Assembly (NCBI RefSeq): GCF_030812915.1
Contig: NZ_JAUSTQ010000003.1
Span: 1-64,000 of the forward strand
DNA length: 64,000 bases
Source of the DNA: Alkalibacillus salilacus
GTDB taxonomy: Bacteria; Bacillota; Bacilli; Bacillales; Alkalibacillaceae
Direction: 5' to 3'
A program made the position numbers and the translations under genes. The notes below the pieces were generated by a model that ran no database searches, was not told the origin of the DNA, and saw only the letters and a program-made list of their open reading frames with translations. Each line of letters opens with the position of its first letter. Positions within the stretch are counted from its first letter, which is position 1. Positions 4,389 through 50,059 of the stretch are shown piece after piece.

Positions 4389-4748
4389 CTATTTTTCTTG
4401 AAAATGAAGGAATGCGTCATGAGCGAATGTCACACCTTGACTCCAAGCTGCGCCTCCACCTAAAGCAATCGCTACACCAATTGCTTCTAATACTTCTTGT
4501 TCTTCCGCCTGATGTTCAGCAGCCCCTTTGGCATGATACACCATGCAATAGTGGTCTTTCGTATAGACAGCAATGCTTAAGGCGATTAATTGTTTTGTTT
4601 TCTTGTCTAAGGATCCCTCTTTAAAGGCTGAATCGGTAAACCGAAAATACTGTTCAGTCAATTCCGGTAAGTTTTTCTCTACTTCGCTTGTTTTTTCTTT
4701 TACATAAAGCAGTACATCATTGAAATTATCATGATTCTCATGATTCAT
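4389..4748 (-). CDS. carboxymuconolactone decarboxylase (AhpD-like) family protein
   Basis: The 119-residue all-helical protein belongs to the CMD/AhpD family. It shows LTEQYFRFTDSAFKEG followed by LDKKTKQLIALSIAV and the reactive segment HYCMVYHAKGA. The family usually has CxxC followed by H at this point. Here only one cysteine precedes the YHAKGA segment, so a thiol-disulfide peroxidase activity is doubtful. The likely start is the ATG at 4748, preceded by AAAGGTG; an upstream in-frame GTG overlaps the ribosome site. Substrate is unknown. Confidence 0.8.
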   Translation of the reverse strand: MNHENHDNFNDVLLYVKEKTSEVEKNLPELTEQYFRFTDSAFKEGSLDKKTKQLIALSIAVYTKDHYCMVYHAKGAAEHQAEEQEVLEAIGVAIALGGGAAWSQGVTFAHDAFLHFQEK

Positions 4749-4944
4749 AGTTATCACACCTTTCTTTATTAATGTGATTTAATAACGTTAGGTTATTCAT
4801 TTTATTTCCGGAGTTGCTCTAATTTTGAACCGATCATGACAAATATCGATTAAATAACTTGTCAAAATTATAAACATTTTGACCTGAATTGTTTGATTTA
4901 TATAGTATTTGCGCTTGCCCGGGAAATAATTCTTTAGATTTATA

Positions 4945-40238: not shown

Positions 40239-40602
40239 CGCTCCCTTTTTCCAATCGTTTAATAACTGTATAAAACGGATGAGAATTCTTATTATAACAA
40301 GGAAAATTTTTATAGGTTCTATTCAACTAATTCGCTAGATCATTTTAAGGTATTTACACAATCTTTCTAAATATTTTAACATAAAAGATCAATTCATCTT
40401 CAAACCGTAATTGTATCTTAAATACTTTAGAGAACTCTTAGAAGCACTTCTTTTTCATCGCTTTTCGTCTTATATATACATATAGATGGAACAATAAAAC
40501 TTTTCAATGGTATGTTTAGATTAACTTCTTTTGTTTTAATAGTATAAAACAAGAATGACAAACAAGGATCTTGCATGCTTTTTTGTTTCATCAAACTTCT
40601 AA
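40239..40602. other. AT-rich intergenic region with no recognisable content
   Basis: I see no conserved gene, RNA or operator in this stretch between the Clp_N gene and copy B of the repeat. Confidence 0.6.
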
Positions 40603-40830
40603 GTTGGCGTCAGGTGAGGAGCGTAGGTGGTGACGCCTGCGGGAACAGCACGCGACTCGAGACCCCGCAGGCCATGCTTTTCGGCCGAGGGATGCACCTG
40701 CGTCTGCAAGTCAACGCTTCGAAGTAGGCTTCCTCGGTGCAAGTAGCAAAGAAGCTTATTCGATGTAGTTGCCTGGCTCGAGCCGTGCCCGCGGCAAGCA
40801 TCCACCGTAAGCGGATCACATGATGCCAAC
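40603..40830 (-). repeat. ~250 bp repeat element, copy B (inverted relative to copy A)
   Basis: The element has inverted ends GTTGGCGTCA (40603-40612) and TGATGCCAAC (40821-40830). Its core 40687-40790 is the reverse complement of the copy A core with 3 differences in 104 bases. The two copies face each other across a 1.3 kb segment holding the Clp_N-GNAT gene. The frames predicted inside are artefacts. Confidence 0.75.
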
Positions 40831-40896
40831 GGCCACCATCAAACATTCACGATAAATTGTGTATCTACCCCAACAAATATTTTAGTGCCAGAAACG

Positions 40897-40930
40897 AAAA
40901 AACCAGCCAATATAGAATTGGCTGGTTTTT
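40897..40930 (-). terminator. terminator of acnA
   Basis: AAAAAACCAGCCAAT pairs perfectly with ATTGGCTGGTTTTT; on the minus strand a T run follows. Confidence 0.9.
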
Positions 40931-43793: not shown

Positions 43794-45191
43794 CTAGATT
43801 AATTGATCAATCTTTGAAATCGCCAAAATAATAGAATCATGTTCGTTTGAATCGATTGTTCGAAAATCAAAATAGACCTTTTCGTTTTCAACTCTAGCAA
43901 TAATCGCAGGTTGATTGAGTCGCAATAATTCTGTTACATGTTCAGCTTTTGCCTCATCAAAAGTCATGACAAGACTGTGTGATGGCAACGTAACTTCAGG
44001 CAATGTTCCACCACCGACTTGTGCCGTTGTCTGCTCAATCGATACATTAATATTTTCTAAGACTGGTAACCTGTTGATAAAAGACTGTACTGATTGCTTG
44101 ATTTGTTCATCCTTTTTTAAAACAGCTTCTAAAGTTGGGATCTCTTCATAAGAACCCGCTTCAAACAGTCGAAGTGTTTCGTCAAGAGCTGCATAGGTCA
44201 TCTTATCAACTCGTAAAACACGATTAAGTGAATGAGATCTTATCTGTTCTATATAGTCTTTCTTACCTGCAATGATACCTGCTTGCGGGCCTCCTAGTAG
44301 TTTATCAACACTAAATGACACAAGGTCGACTCCATAGGCAATGACTTCTTGGACAGTTGGTTCATCACTGATTCCATTTTCGCTCAAATTATATAATAAC
44401 CCACTTCCTAAATCCTCATATAACACCACACCATGCTGTGTCGTTAATGGTTTAAGTTCTTGTCGATTAACACTTGCTGTAAAACCTTCCATATAAAAAT
44501 TACTCTGATGGACCTTCATAATCATCTTTGTCTCTTCGCAGATCGCCTTTTGATAATCACTTAAGTGTGTTTTGTTCGTGGTTCCTACTTCATGAAGAAT
44601 CGCCCCACTTTCTTCCATGATTTCAGAAACTCTGAAACTACCACCGATTTCGACTAACTCACCACGTGATACGATAACTTCTTCCCCTTGGGCCAAAGCA
44701 CTCAATACTAAAAACACAGCAGCAGCGTTATTGTTAACAACGATTGCTGCTTCAGCACCTATCAATGTTTTAATACGTTCTTCAACTAAATCGTGACGAG
44801 ATCCTCTTCTCCCTGTTGTTAAGTCATACTCTAATGTAGAATAGCTCTTGGCTACTTCTGTGACGCGGTTTGCGGCAGTATCGGCTAATCGAGATCGGCC
44901 CAGGTTGGTGTGAATGATCGTCCCAGTAGCATTAATAACAGATTGCAATGCTTTTCTTTGCCTTGCCTCTAATAGTTTAAACGCATACGATAAAGTAACT
45001 TCATATAAATTACCCTCATTCCAAGATGAAGGGGCCTGATTATTTAATATAGTTGAACGAATGTCGCTAGTGACTTCTTGAAAGACAGATTTCAACGAAT
45101 CGAAGGGAACCCCTTCTTGATTGATCATCGTTTGACTTTGATCATCATTTAATAATTGATCTATGGCCGGAATTGATCTTAGCAATGTCAT
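43794..45191 (-). CDS. selA: L-seryl-tRNA(Sec) selenium transferase SelA
   Basis: The 465-residue PLP enzyme converts Ser-tRNA(Sec) to Sec-tRNA(Sec) using selenophosphate. SVINATGTIIHTNLGRSRL at the N-terminus, RRGSRHDLVEERI, VVNNNAAAVFLVLSAL, and the PLP-lysine segment VSFSVDKLLGGPQAG (Lys297 in this numbering) are diagnostic. I chose the ATG at 45191, 9 nt after AGG; a longer frame to 45248 would run into a hairpin. It is last in a SelW-like gene to SelA series and completes the toolkit with SelD, SelB and tRNA-Sec nearby. Confidence 0.95.
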   Translation of the reverse strand: MTLLRSIPAIDQLLNDDQSQTMINQEGVPFDSLKSVFQEVTSDIRSTILNNQAPSSWNEGNLYEVTLSYAFKLLEARQRKALQSVINATGTIIHTNLGRSRLADTAANRVTEVAKSYSTLEYDLTTGRRGSRHDLVEERIKTLIGAEAAIVVNNNAAAVFLVLSALAQGEEVIVSRGELVEIGGSFRVSEIMEESGAILHEVGTTNKTHLSDYQKAICEETKMIMKVHQSNFYMEGFTASVNRQELKPLTTQHGVVLYEDLGSGLLYNLSENGISDEPTVQEVIAYGVDLVSFSVDKLLGGPQAGIIAGKKDYIEQIRSHSLNRVLRVDKMTYAALDETLRLFEAGSYEEIPTLEAVLKKDEQIKQSVQSFINRLPVLENINVSIEQTTAQVGGGTLPEVTLPSHSLVMTFDEAKAEHVTELLRLNQPAIIARVENEKVYFDFRTIDSNEHDSIILAISKIDQLI

Positions 45192-45233: not shown

Positions 45234-45263
45234 AACCTCCATTAGCACTAGCTAATGGAGGTT
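45234..45263 (-). other. 13-bp intercistronic stem-loop between the selenoprotein gene and selA
   Basis: AACCTCCATTAGC (45234-45246) pairs perfectly with GCTAATGGAGGTT (45251-45263) around a 4-base loop. It sits 2 bases after the stop codon of the SelW-like gene. Without a T run it is more likely an mRNA-processing or attenuation element than a plain terminator. Confidence 0.65.
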
Positions 45264-45265
45264 CA

Positions 45266-45499
45266 TCATGATTTCATATCATTAATGATAGCATTAATGT
45301 CTGGAAACTCACCTGTATCTAGTTTTGAATAGATTTTCTGATCATTTACTGATATTTCAAATGCGCCGCCTGAAGATGGAATTAGTTTCATTTCTACAAT
45401 CTCATGGCGAAATTCTGTAAATAATTGATCTGCGAAACTCGCAGCTTTAGGAGCATAGTTTCACTGCATACAAAATTCAATTGATACTCGATAACTCAT
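45266..45499 (-). CDS. SelW/Rdx-family selenoprotein with in-frame TGA (CxxU)
   Basis: The frame is interrupted by one TGA at 45463-45461. Reading it as selenocysteine gives 77 residues with IEFCMQU at positions 7-13, then NYAPKAASFADQL and IPSSGGAFEISVN, and ending in TGEFPDINAIINDMKS. The CxxU motif at the end of the first strand, and the SGGxFEI segment, match the SelW/Rdx family of thioredoxin-like selenoproteins, in which cysteine homologues have CxxC. A good ribosome site (GAGGAGGG) precedes the ATG. Translation needs the SelB, tRNA-Sec and SECIS found next to it. A plain ORF finder misses it. Physiological partner is unknown. Confidence 0.88.
45430..45444 (-). promoter_or_regulatory. 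candidate bacterial SECIS hairpin of the SelW-like mRNA
   Basis: On the minus strand CTGCGA-GTT-TCGCAG forms a perfect 6-bp stem with a 3-base loop that starts with G. The loop lies 22 bases after the UGA, within the usual bacterial SECIS range. Confidence 0.65.
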
Positions 45500-45624
45500 A
45501 ACTTGTCCCTCCTCTAGTGTTTGACTATTAGATTAGTAAAAATACAGACTTTTTGCAACAATCTAGATTGGAATGATAGTCTTTTTTTGAAACATGTAAT
45601 AAGCTGGTATCAGGGGGTGAACCT

Positions 45625-46686
45625 ATGAGTCGTGATCGAGAAGAAATTGTTCGGTTAACATCTTTATCAACAAAAGCTGGTTGAGGATGCAAACTCGCAC
45701 CAAGCGAGCTGACTCAAGTGTTGGGTCAAGTAGAATCAAAAACAAATAATCAAAACGTTTTATATAGTCAAAATAGTGCTGATGATGCTGGTGTTTACTA
45801 TATTGATGATCAACTTGCTATGGTACAATCAGTTGATTATTTCACACCTATTGTGGATGATCCTTATCAATTTGGCCAAATTGCCGTTGCCAATGCAGTA
45901 AGTGATATCTACGCGATGGGAGGCGATGTTAAAACAGCTCTAAATATCGTCGGTTTCTCTGTTGAAAAATATGGATCAGATATATTAGCTTCTATTTTAC
46001 AAGGTGCTGAGGATAAGATGGCTGAAACAGGTGGTGCCATTATTGGAGGTCACTCCATTGATGATGATGAACCTAAATTCGGTTTAGCTGTCACTGGATT
46101 CGCTCATCCCAATCATATATGGACAAACGGAAATGCTAAGCCTGGTGATCAATTGATTCTAACCAAACCAATCGGAACAGGTATTGCAACGACTGCCATT
46201 AAAAAAGGTTTAGCTGATGAATCCCTTCAAACAACAACCATTAATTGGATGGGTCAGTTAAATAAACGAGCGAAGTCGATTTTACAACAATACCGACCTA
46301 ATGCTGTGACTGATGTTACAGGGTTTGGTTTACTAGGGCATGCTTATGAGATTGCTGAAAACAGCCACGTTCTTCTTTCAATTAATTATGATTCGGTTCC
46401 TGTAATTGAAGGTGTTGATAATTATCTTAAACAAGGTGCTGTACCTGGTGGATCTAAAGCCAACTTATCATGGCTTAAAGACTATGTTACATTCGATTCT
46501 AATTTAAACCGTGATGACCAATTGTTATTAACGGATGCTGTAACATCTGGTGGGTTGCTGATATCATTGAATCCTCAGGACGCAGAACAATTCATACAAG
46601 AGATGAATGAATCACCTGACCATTTAGCGGTAACAATTGGTGAAGTGGTTAATCATCAAACGCCACATATAATGGTGTCATATTAG
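45625..46686 (+). CDS. selD: selenophosphate synthetase SelD, itself a selenoprotein
   Basis: SelD makes selenophosphate from selenide and ATP. The conventional reading frame begins at a TTG at 45718, but an upstream ATG at 45625 with a GGGGG ribosome site is in frame and separated only by one TGA at 45682-45684. Reading TGA as selenocysteine gives a 353-residue protein starting MSRDREEIVRLTSLSTKAGU, followed by GCK. Sec20 lies at the catalytic position, where many SelD have Cys, and Lys23 is the conserved partner. Later motifs are TPIVDDPYQFGQIAVANAVSD and GGAIIGGHSIDDDEPKFG. It is divergent from the SelW-like gene. Confidence 0.93.
45694..45727 (+). promoter_or_regulatory. candidate SECIS stem-loops of selD
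   Basis: Two hairpins follow the TGA. CTCGC-ACCAA-GCGAG (45694-45708) is close. GACTCAA-GTG-TTGGGTC (45711-45727) has a G-starting loop 33 bases after the UGA, which fits the bacterial SECIS rule better. Confidence 0.5.
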
Positions 46687-46748: not shown

Positions 46749-48623
46749 TTAAGTCCAATATCGATATTGCTCCTCTCGTCTTGTCTTCTCTAATTGGTCA
46801 CAAGTTTCTAAGAAAGGAATTATATATTTCCTTGAAATTTGTAATTGCTCCTTGGCTTCCTTTAAAGAAAACTGCTTAGGACACGCATGGTAAAGTGATT
46901 GAACAGCATGATAAAAACAATCATAATGAACAACTAATTCTTCAGTTAATTGAATAATGAGTTGCTTAGATAAACAATAATCTTTTAATGATTCAACTGT
47001 TGCTGCCTCTAACTCAGGGAAATACGTCCTCCATTCTTTTACTGTTAATCCATCTTCATATAAGTGATTTAAACCTCTGTTAACAGTTTCTCTGATTTCA
47101 CTAGGAATATAAGGTTCAAATTCAGGGAGTTTAACTAAGTGTTGCTCTTGAATCATACAATGACTGTTTACCCATTCATTTAGGATTTTCTTTTGGGTTT
47201 TATCAGGTGCATCAATGGTTTGCATGACAATCGATTTATCTAGACCAGTTTCCATAGGATATTGATTATGGAAGTTCTGCAATTGATTAAAAACCTGATG
47301 ATATTGACTTTCTAACCACGCTTTCGATGCAAATGATTGATCGATTTGAATAAGTGATTGCGTCTTTAGTAATTGTTCTAATAATGCAGTAACTTCGGCT
47401 TCTTGTAAGTTTAAGACGTTTGCAATTTCGCCTTCAGTTAAAAGTGGTTCTTCTTGATGCAAATAATCTATTAATTGTTCACTTGGTGATTGTACCGATG
47501 ACCTTTTAATTGTATCCACTGTTTGTTTTCCAAATTTGTGTTTCCTAGCAGGAGCGTGCACCACTTTACCCCCACCAATTGTTTCTTTAGGGCTAGCACG
47601 TCTTAATACAAATAAATCATGCCTAAATGCATACACTGATTCCTCAAGTTCAAGTTGCGCGTAAACTGTTTCTTCAGCTTCATGAATTTCATTGCGATCA
47701 AATAAAATTATTCGTCCGTACACTTCACTCGTTCCAATATGTAATTTAATCGGGCTTCGCTGTTTAATGGTTTGTTGTAAATACCGAGAAGTCTGAATTT
47801 CAACATCTAGACGATATGCTTCTACTTGATTAGGGTGATTAGTTAACACATCTCCTCGTTTAATAGTATCAGATTCAAGCCCTTTAATCGCTAAGGCAGC
47901 CCGGCTACCAAGTGATGCTGATTCTACCGTTCGACCAAACTGTTCAATACTTTTTACACTCACCGAACGATTGCTAGGCTGAACATATAATTGGTCACGG
48001 TTATACACCACTCCATCTAACACCGTGCCACGAACGACCGTACCAATCCCGTGAATTTGAAAGGCTTGGTCAATGGGCATACGAAAGTAACCCATCGAAT
48101 TACGGTATGGCGAAACTTCAAGAAGCTGCAATAAAGCATGCTTTAAATCGGCAATTCCTTTCTCTGATTGCGAATCGACTAAATGAATTGGAGCTTGTTC
48201 AAATACTGTATCATGAGTGTATCGATTTAATTCTTCTAATACGAGTTGTAACCATTCATCATCCACTAACTCTATTTTCGTAATTACAATCATCGTATTT
48301 TGGATCTTTAAATAATTTAAAATTTCGAGATGTTCAACAGTTTGTGGCATTACCCCATCATCTGCAGCCACAACTAACACTGTTTTATCAACACCTGAGA
48401 CTCCTGCAATCATTTGTCTTATAAACCGTTCATGTCCTGGTACATCAATAATTGATAAAGTCATCCCGTCATCTTCATACAATGGAGCATAACCTAATTC
48501 AATTGAAATGTTTCGCTCCTGCTCTTCTTGTAATCTATCTGTGTTAATTCCTGTTAAAGCTTCAGTTAATTTGGTTTTTCCGTGGTCTATATGGCCGGCC
48601 ATACCTATTGTGTATTGTTTCAT
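46749..48623 (-). CDS. selB: selenocysteine-specific elongation factor SelB
   Basis: The 624-residue GTPase delivers Sec-tRNA(Sec) to UGA codons marked by SECIS. The G domain starts at once with [34 protein letters not shown] and VVITKIEL (TKIE in place of NKxD, as in SelB) follow. The C-terminal third consists of winged-helix repeats that bind the mRNA hairpin. It shares a terminator with selD. Presence of SelB confirms that the TGA readings above are real. Confidence 0.96.
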
Positions 48624-49962: not shown

Positions 49963-50059
49963 GGGGCTGGTTACAGTGCTGGTGCTTGTCACGGTCTTCA
50001 AAACCGTTCGGGAGGCGCGTGCCGTCTCTGGTGGGTTCGATTCCCACACAGTCCCGCCA
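49963..50059 (+). tRNA. selC: tRNA-Sec (anticodon TCA)
   Basis: The 97-nt molecule is longer than a standard tRNA. The anticodon arm ACGGT-CTTCAAA-ACCGT (49991-50007) puts TCA at 49998-50000. The acceptor arm GGGGCTG pairs with CAGTCCC, and discriminator G plus an encoded CCA follow at 50056-50059. A long variable arm, GTGGG/CCCAC T stem and extended acceptor region fit bacterial tRNA-Sec. Its complement of selA, selD and selB lies within 5 kb. Confidence 0.95.

Follow-up and report, generated by a model that had tools for sequence, protein, structure and literature searches.

A SelW-like selenoprotein gene between selA and selD in Alkalibacillus salilacus and its pairing with SelA across the order

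A short frame interrupted by a single in-frame UGA between selA and selD of Alkalibacillus salilacus is almost certainly a functional selW gene, in which codon 13 is decoded as selenocysteine (Sec) through SelB acting at a hairpin and the product is an Rdx protein of thioredoxin-like fold. The gene, its conserved UGA, a covarying hairpin, and the accompanying set of Sec genes are established here, while the fold is assigned by prediction and homology. The gene is located in a 64,000-nucleotide (nt) stretch of DNA, referred to below as the window, which corresponds to positions 1 to 64,000 of contig NZ_JAUSTQ010000003.1 (assembly GCF_030812915.1).

RESULTS

A gene hidden by an in-frame TGA

The original prediction, made from the letters of the window, placed a SelW/Rdx-like gene at positions 45266 to 45499 without stating the strand. 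These coordinates are correct, and the gene lies on the minus strand. It starts with an ATG at 45499, ends with a TGA stop at 45268-45266, and is translated as MSYRVSIEFCMQUNYAPKAASFADQLFTEFRHEIVEMKLIPSSGGAFEISVNDQKIYSKLDTGEFPDINAIINDMKS. The only in-frame TGA is codon 13, which falls in the motif C10-M-Q-U13, the CxxU that had been proposed. A Shine-Dalgarno sequence precedes the start (ctagaggagggacaagtt-ATG). The gene and its signals are as follows:

45266..45499, minus strand: selW, SelW/Rdx selenoprotein of 77 amino acids (translation, Pfam Rdx, NCBIfam TIGR02174, conservation)
45507..45514, minus strand: Shine-Dalgarno sequence GAGGAGGG of selW, a good one (sequence)
45461..45463, minus strand: UGA codon 13 of selW, predicted to be read as selenocysteine (TGA in all aligned loci)
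45430..45444, minus strand: SECIS hairpin of selW, bacterial type, 6 bp, CUGCGA-GUU-UCGCAG, inside the coding sequence (covariation)

A mechanical list of plain open reading frames (ORFs) of at least 60 amino acids contains none in the window that overlaps selW, in agreement with the expectation that normal gene calling would miss the gene. The annotation gap expected at this place is present, but its size is 469 base pairs (bp) in the ORF list, or 433 bp when counted from the likely selA ATG (45191) to that of selD (45625), rather than 460. The same list starts selD late, at GTG 45718, so that its N terminus and Sec codon are lost; a gene finder that treats every UGA as a stop would miss selW and cut off the beginning of selD. 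Since the window holds 89 six-frame read-through frames of at least 75 codons with one TGA, the open selW frame taken alone is weak evidence. The gene is considered real because of its match to Rdx (E = 2.2e-19), its conservation, and the covariation of its hairpin. A scan for sigma-70 promoters around selW returned a chance-level result (three found versus 2.8 expected), and the same region showed no T-run terminator.

SelW belongs to the Rdx family

When the TGA is read through, the product scores 79.2 bits against Pfam Rdx (PF10262; cut-off 22.6), over profile positions 1-71 of 74, and 66.9 bits against NCBIfam TIGR02174 (SelT/SelW/SelH; cut-off 34.2). Its score against the SelTWH_Campy equivalog NF041051, 78.4 bits, is under the 88-bit cut-off, which leaves it outside that group. 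An AlphaFold model (pLDDT 89.8) predicts a strand at residues 3-10, a helix at 16-30, three further strands, and C-terminal helices. In the model, C10 and U13 are at the end of the first strand of a thioredoxin-like beta-alpha-beta-beta-beta-alpha fold, as is characteristic of the family. Foldseek matched the model to SelW-related structures, best to 2fa8 (E = 3.8e-9). The SelW-type fold expected beyond the TGA is thus supported by the Rdx match and by the model.

A profile made from 42 SelW sequences matched eight distinct Protein Data Bank (PDB) sequences: 2fa8, 3dex, 2p0g, 2obk, 2oka, 2ojl, 2ljk (C17orf37), and 2npb, the last being mouse SelW (E = 1.7e-5). The best three alignments (2fa8, 3dex, and 2p0g) cross the Sec position, and each has Cys there; in the five further chains, mouse SelW included, the matched range spans the Sec position. 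CxxC homologues therefore align on both sides of the TGA, the outcome that had been proposed as confirmation. The Rdx structures from Agrobacterium (2fa8), Streptomyces (3dex), and Vibrio (2p0g), as well as 2obk, 2oka, and 2ojl, share the fold and have a similar length, with identities of 27-40% in Foldseek. The first three differ from the protein described here in carrying Cys in place of Sec and hence need no selenium. Mouse SELENOW (2npb) has the Rdx fold in common with it (Foldseek TM-score 0.76, query-normalised; E = 2.8e-3; identity 20%). Vertebrate SELENOW natively contains CxxU, and the eukaryotic SECIS sits in the 3′ untranslated region, whereas the SECIS found here is within the coding sequence.

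The UGA is conserved and the frame beyond it is under selection

To describe conservation, we refer to samples of the family (22 genomes), the order (397), and the phylum (398). One Rdx gene was found in 19 of the 22 family genomes, each with exactly one TGA, at the same motif place in all 19 loci. The order sample contains an Rdx gene in 164 genomes; exactly one internal TGA is present in every one of them (150 listed matches plus 14 read separately, the latter for TGA only), and no stop-free Rdx match was found among the 397 genomes. Across the phylum, Rdx was detected in 31 genomes; 28 of the matches contain a single TGA and 3 are stop-free, and one of these three (genome G576) does not cover the Sec position. 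Codon 13 is TGA throughout the 42 aligned loci, which include that of the window. The Sec codon is likewise TGA in 80/80 named loci, which are the best 80 of 488 confirmed relatives and come from Alkalibacillus, Piscibacillus, Pontibacillus, Cytobacillus, Neobacillus, and others.

The part of the frame after the TGA gave dN/dS values of 0.04-0.31 in 17 of 18 comparisons with family relatives; these are rough, since dS often exceeded 1, and for the remaining locus (L015) dS was not computable. Differences in this part number 265, 143, and 555 at codon positions 1, 2, and 3, respectively. An in-frame stop would also be expected if a nonsense mutation had inactivated a CxxC Rdx gene. The chances that selW is such a pseudogene are, however, negligible, given the single TGA common to all Rdx genomes of the order, the failure to find a stop-free match among them, the purifying selection evident from the codon-position counts, and the covariation of the hairpin. 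A chance frame was likewise rejected on the basis of TGA conservation and downstream purifying selection. The check on relatives thus came out as anticipated for a selenoprotein gene: they keep one TGA, and the frame beyond it is maintained.

A bacterial-type SECIS hairpin follows the UGA

The selW hairpin starts 16 nt past the UGA, and 22 nt separate the UGA from the GUU loop, exactly the distance first proposed. We aligned 42 loci (40 distinct rows), which comprise the 19 family loci and the 23 best-scoring further ones. The stem is paired in 99.2% of cells, the outermost pair being missing in locus L021 and the innermost in L007, and four of the six pairs show changes on both sides. Among the best 80 of 488 relatives, six pairs form in 78 loci and five in 2; this set overlaps with the 42 aligned loci, at least Alkalibacillus haloalkaliphilus being in both. 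The loop starts with G in all 42 aligned rows and all 80 named loci. Bacterial SECIS elements have a G in a short apical loop. The selW hairpin agrees with this description in its loop G, its place just after the UGA and within the coding sequence, and its conserved structure.

Cells of the stem changed on both sides number 28, compared to a mean of 8.5 in shuffles that did not keep relatedness, and none of 500 shuffles reached this value. Sliding the partner strand abolished the signal. One of the five covariation measures, the number of further pair types, was not above shuffles (6 versus 5.9). As many as 24 of the 28 cells fall in two pairs that link third codon positions: in 18 of them U-A becomes C-G, in most rows within a pair of alanine codons, and in 6 G-C becomes A-U. 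Since these compensatory changes are at third codon positions, the protein hardly explains them. In three further cells both residues change (A20V with A23T) and the pair is kept.

Other systems are known in which a hairpin past a stop codon favours its read-through, and the selW hairpin might do no more than this for a UGA decoded by another route, such as near-cognate suppression or as another amino acid. We consider this very improbable because a complete Sec machinery is encoded in the same cluster, SelA accompanies Rdx in all 164 genomes of the order sample, the hairpin after the UGA of selD has a similar core, and Cys at the Sec position of the three solved homologues fits Sec.

A hairpin model (R1) was built from 28 chosen sequences, 14 of SelW and 14 of SelD. 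In a genome-wide search, the selW hairpin ranked first with 26 bits; in the window, the selD hairpin scored 19.3 bits; both are training sequences of R1. Two other places were found genome-wide, both without a usable frame. Since neither the selD hairpin nor a SelL-type hairpin with the loop AGTT (see below) was among the genome-wide results, R1 does not provide a census.

Sec machinery surrounding selW

Genes that define the Sec-decoding trait, selA, selB, selD, and that of tRNA-Sec, are all present within the window:

43794..45191, minus strand: selA, L-seryl-tRNA(Sec) selenium transferase (TIGR00474, 552.9 bits, cut-off 267.9)
45234..45263, minus strand: hairpin between selW and selA, 13 bp, perfect (sequence and fold)
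45625..46686, plus strand: selD, selenide water dikinase, itself a selenoprotein (TIGR00476, 384.6 bits, cut-off 125)
45710..45728, plus strand: SECIS hairpin of selD, 8 bp, GUG loop (covariation)
46749..48623, minus strand: selB, selenocysteine-specific elongation factor (TIGR00475, 359.9 bits, cut-off 242.25; C-terminal winged helices, SelB-wing Pfam domains)
49963..50059, plus strand: tRNA-Sec, anticodon UCA (ARAGORN; Rfam RF01852, 61.4 bits, gathering 47)

The selA frame is open from GTG 45248, and its likely start, chosen by inspection, is ATG 45191. U20 of SelD is encoded at 45682-45684. The hairpin past this codon has a covarying 8-bp stem with a GUU or similar loop and is paired in 98.8% of cells (34 loci). 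The likeness of the selW and selD hairpins is consistent with one SelB reading both.

Within the family, 20 of 22 genomes have a tRNA-Sec that scored above the cut-off. The two others (G006 and G007) are also without SelW; SelD gave no match in G006 and a weak SelD-like match without a stop in G007. Genome G005 has tRNA-Sec and SelB and no match to SelW or SelD. Since its contig ends ~90 bases past selB, where selD and selW would follow, their absence is likely an assembly gap. Two observations concern selD itself. In G015 (loci L061 and L064; G015:C1:9024-10037), selD contains two TGA (one of them the Sec codon), two TAG, and four TAA codons in an assembly of 82% completeness, so that either the gene has decayed or the sequence contains errors. 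G019 holds a second, divergent selD-like match (L063; G019:C1:204287-205285) with 43% identity and one TGA.

The 13-bp hairpin between selW and selA contains GGAGG in its 3′ arm and is not followed by a T-run. This hairpin, together with the position of selA, which follows on the same strand in nearly all named loci, could mean that selW is mainly a selenium-sensing leader of selA, with UGA decoding and the intergenic hairpin tuning selA expression. Against this, the intergenic hairpins of 18 family relatives vary in sequence, some resembling ordinary terminators, and the SelW protein is conserved from end to end, with 11 columns invariant and 17 nearly so, as for a working enzyme. A mainly regulatory role is therefore highly unlikely, and we continue to regard selW as a gene for a working selenoprotein.

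SelW is paired with SelA across the order

The original prediction pointed to the adjacency of the gene to selA. In the family, SelA is at most 1.5 kb from SelW in 19/19 loci and SelD in 13/19. For the order sample, SelA matches were accepted at E = 1e-100 or better, because weaker ones were taken to be other PLP enzymes; this threshold yields 180 genomes, the tool's own cut-off 224, and E ≤ 0.001 gives 237. SelW is present in 164 of the 180, and no genome among the 397 has SelW without SelA. Since the other 16 SelA genomes have no Rdx match, the pair is not strictly obligate. Only one of these 16, G121, has FdhA matches holding an internal TGA (two matches).

Distances were calculated from 150 listed Rdx places and 150 listed SelA places (149 genomes). 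We excluded 23 Rdx genomes whose SelA place was not among the matches listed, which left 127. Among the matches listed, SelW and SelA lie within 5 kb of each other in 121/127 genomes, with a median gap of 367 bp between matches; the claimed adjacency thus holds order-wide. In the six far genomes, again among the matches listed, the two are 84-96 kb apart (three genomes) or on different contigs (three). Four of the six (G263, G304, G362, and G399) have a second, unlisted SelA match, so that a copy of SelA may lie nearer.

The best 80 of 488 loci show the same arrangement. In 79/80, SelA follows downstream on the strand of SelW, the exception being L144, with no SelA within its 12 kb. SelD is found on the opposite strand in 63/80, SelB in 37/80, and tRNA-Sec in 22/80.

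SelW is not the only candidate client of the Sec machinery

The prediction had also suggested that SelW may be the main target of the Sec system. In the window's genome, FdhA gave only weak matches, inside a 1229-residue frame, and no selenouridine synthase (SelU) scored over the cut-off. In the family, 0/22 genomes have an FdhA match with an internal stop, and 7/22 have a SelU. A search for AhpC-TSA proteins in five genomes of the genus revealed a third selenoprotein candidate in the window's genome, a TGA frame at G000:C6:6573-6860 with the motif U-P-V-C (UxxC). The candidate itself is placed at L157:1559-2119 (plus strand), about G000:C6 6558-7118. A hairpin, CACGC-AGTT-GCGTG, follows the TGA, and both are kept in the orthologue from G002 (L158). 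The nearest NCBIfam family is “SelL-related redox protein,” with 84.7 bits, below the cut-off of 120.

Other genomes of the genus differ. Peroxiredoxin TGA frames were detected in G003 (L159) and G004 (L160:1323-1934, minus strand), with U in F-T-F-V-U-P-T-E at the presumed peroxidatic position and an AGCAGC-AGTT-GCTGCT hairpin; they are closest to PrxU and below its cut-off of 270 bits, the G004 protein scoring 152.8. In G001, all 10 AhpC-TSA matches are stop-free. SelW and SelD are thus found in each of the five genomes, and the further selenoprotein candidates vary among them.

The result for G001, together with the findings for FdhA and SelU in the window's genome, would fit SelW being the only Sec client besides SelD there. 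We consider this unlikely, since the UPVC frame and its hairpin are present in the same genome and kept in an orthologue, and since the search covered few selenoprotein families. The PrxU-like frames of G003 and G004 weaken the sole-client proposal in the same way. The suggestion of a main target thus stands in part: SelW is the constant partner of SelA, and neither FdhA nor SelU was found in the window's genome, but SelD and the SelL-related candidate also use, or would use, Sec. Overall, SelW is the constant client of the Sec machinery and probably not its only one. That it is the client mainly keeping the Sec trait in the order is a tentative proposal, to which we give slightly less than an even chance.

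Two other regions of the window were noted. Positions 4389-4757 (minus strand) encode an AhpD-like protein with a carboxymuconolactone decarboxylase fold, whose nearest families include selenoproteins; it has DxxC at what we take to be the place of the CxxC of AhpD. The region 40550-40900 has a GC content of 51%, compared to 37% for the window, and contains two overlapping ORFs of no clear sense.

DISCUSSION

The following scheme draws on established SelB/SECIS decoding and on the complete gene set of the window, from which we infer Sec insertion at UGA 13. SelD, by way of its own Sec, would supply selenophosphate, which SelA would load on tRNA-Sec. When a ribosome reaches the UGA at codon 13 of selW, SelB-GTP with Sec-tRNA(Sec) would bind the hairpin 17-31 nt downstream, and selenocysteine would be inserted. 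The product would be a 77-residue Rdx protein whose CxxU pair ends the first strand. SelW is most likely a small thiol/selenol oxidoreductase in which U13 would act as the nucleophile and C10 would resolve it as a selenenylsulfide; judging by the fold and by CxxU proteins in general, its reductant may be thioredoxin or bacillithiol. In the order as a whole, SelW would be a client retained in most genomes that have SelA (164/180).

The gene adds one more SelW-like selenoprotein to an established family. Like other bacterial members (PF10262, TIGR02174, NF041051), it has CxxU in a single Rdx domain; it differs from them in its location between selA and selD and in scoring below the Campylobacter cut-off of NF041051. 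SelW-like selenoproteins were reported in 2005 for G. sulfurreducens and C. jejuni (PMC1242214). A survey from 2006 gave 10 bacterial SelW-like sequences and, among organisms that contain Sec, very few Cys homologues, if any; it counted three Bacillales selenoproteins and attributed maintenance of the Sec trait largely to FdhA and/or SelD (PMC1794560). For epsilonproteobacteria, a 2015 study noted that annotation had overlooked the small SelW genes entirely and that these share a 5/6-bp apical hairpin located a few nucleotides past the TGA (PMC4607533). The annotation miss and the post-TGA apical hairpin described there are alike to those presented here, and the phylum is different. In more recent work, SelW-like proteins were found in 35 of some 5200 organisms (2016; PMC5029168), and the family was named prominent in marine samples by a 2021 survey (PMC9402790) and a 2022 review (PMC9312934).

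Our literature search covered open-licence texts and within that scope returned no description of an order-wide SelW-SelA pairing. We regard this pairing as a modest addition to known SelW biology. The wider count matters more than the single gene: the Sec form of SelW occurs in 164/397 genomes of the order, although this number and the 35 of 2016 are not like for like, since many more genomes are now available.

A bolder reading would make selW and selA an order-wide functional pair, in which SelW keeps the Sec trait alive and the selW UGA also reports the selenium supply and tunes selA. We consider this a long shot. If it were true, these bacilli would use selenium on account of one 77-residue redox protein, which would also serve as the gauge of that use. 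Aside from this possibility, SelW is always found with SelA in the order sample, while the window's genome is without FdhA. Many of these bacilli are aerobic and cultivable, and their small selenoproteomes would allow a direct test of what SelW does.
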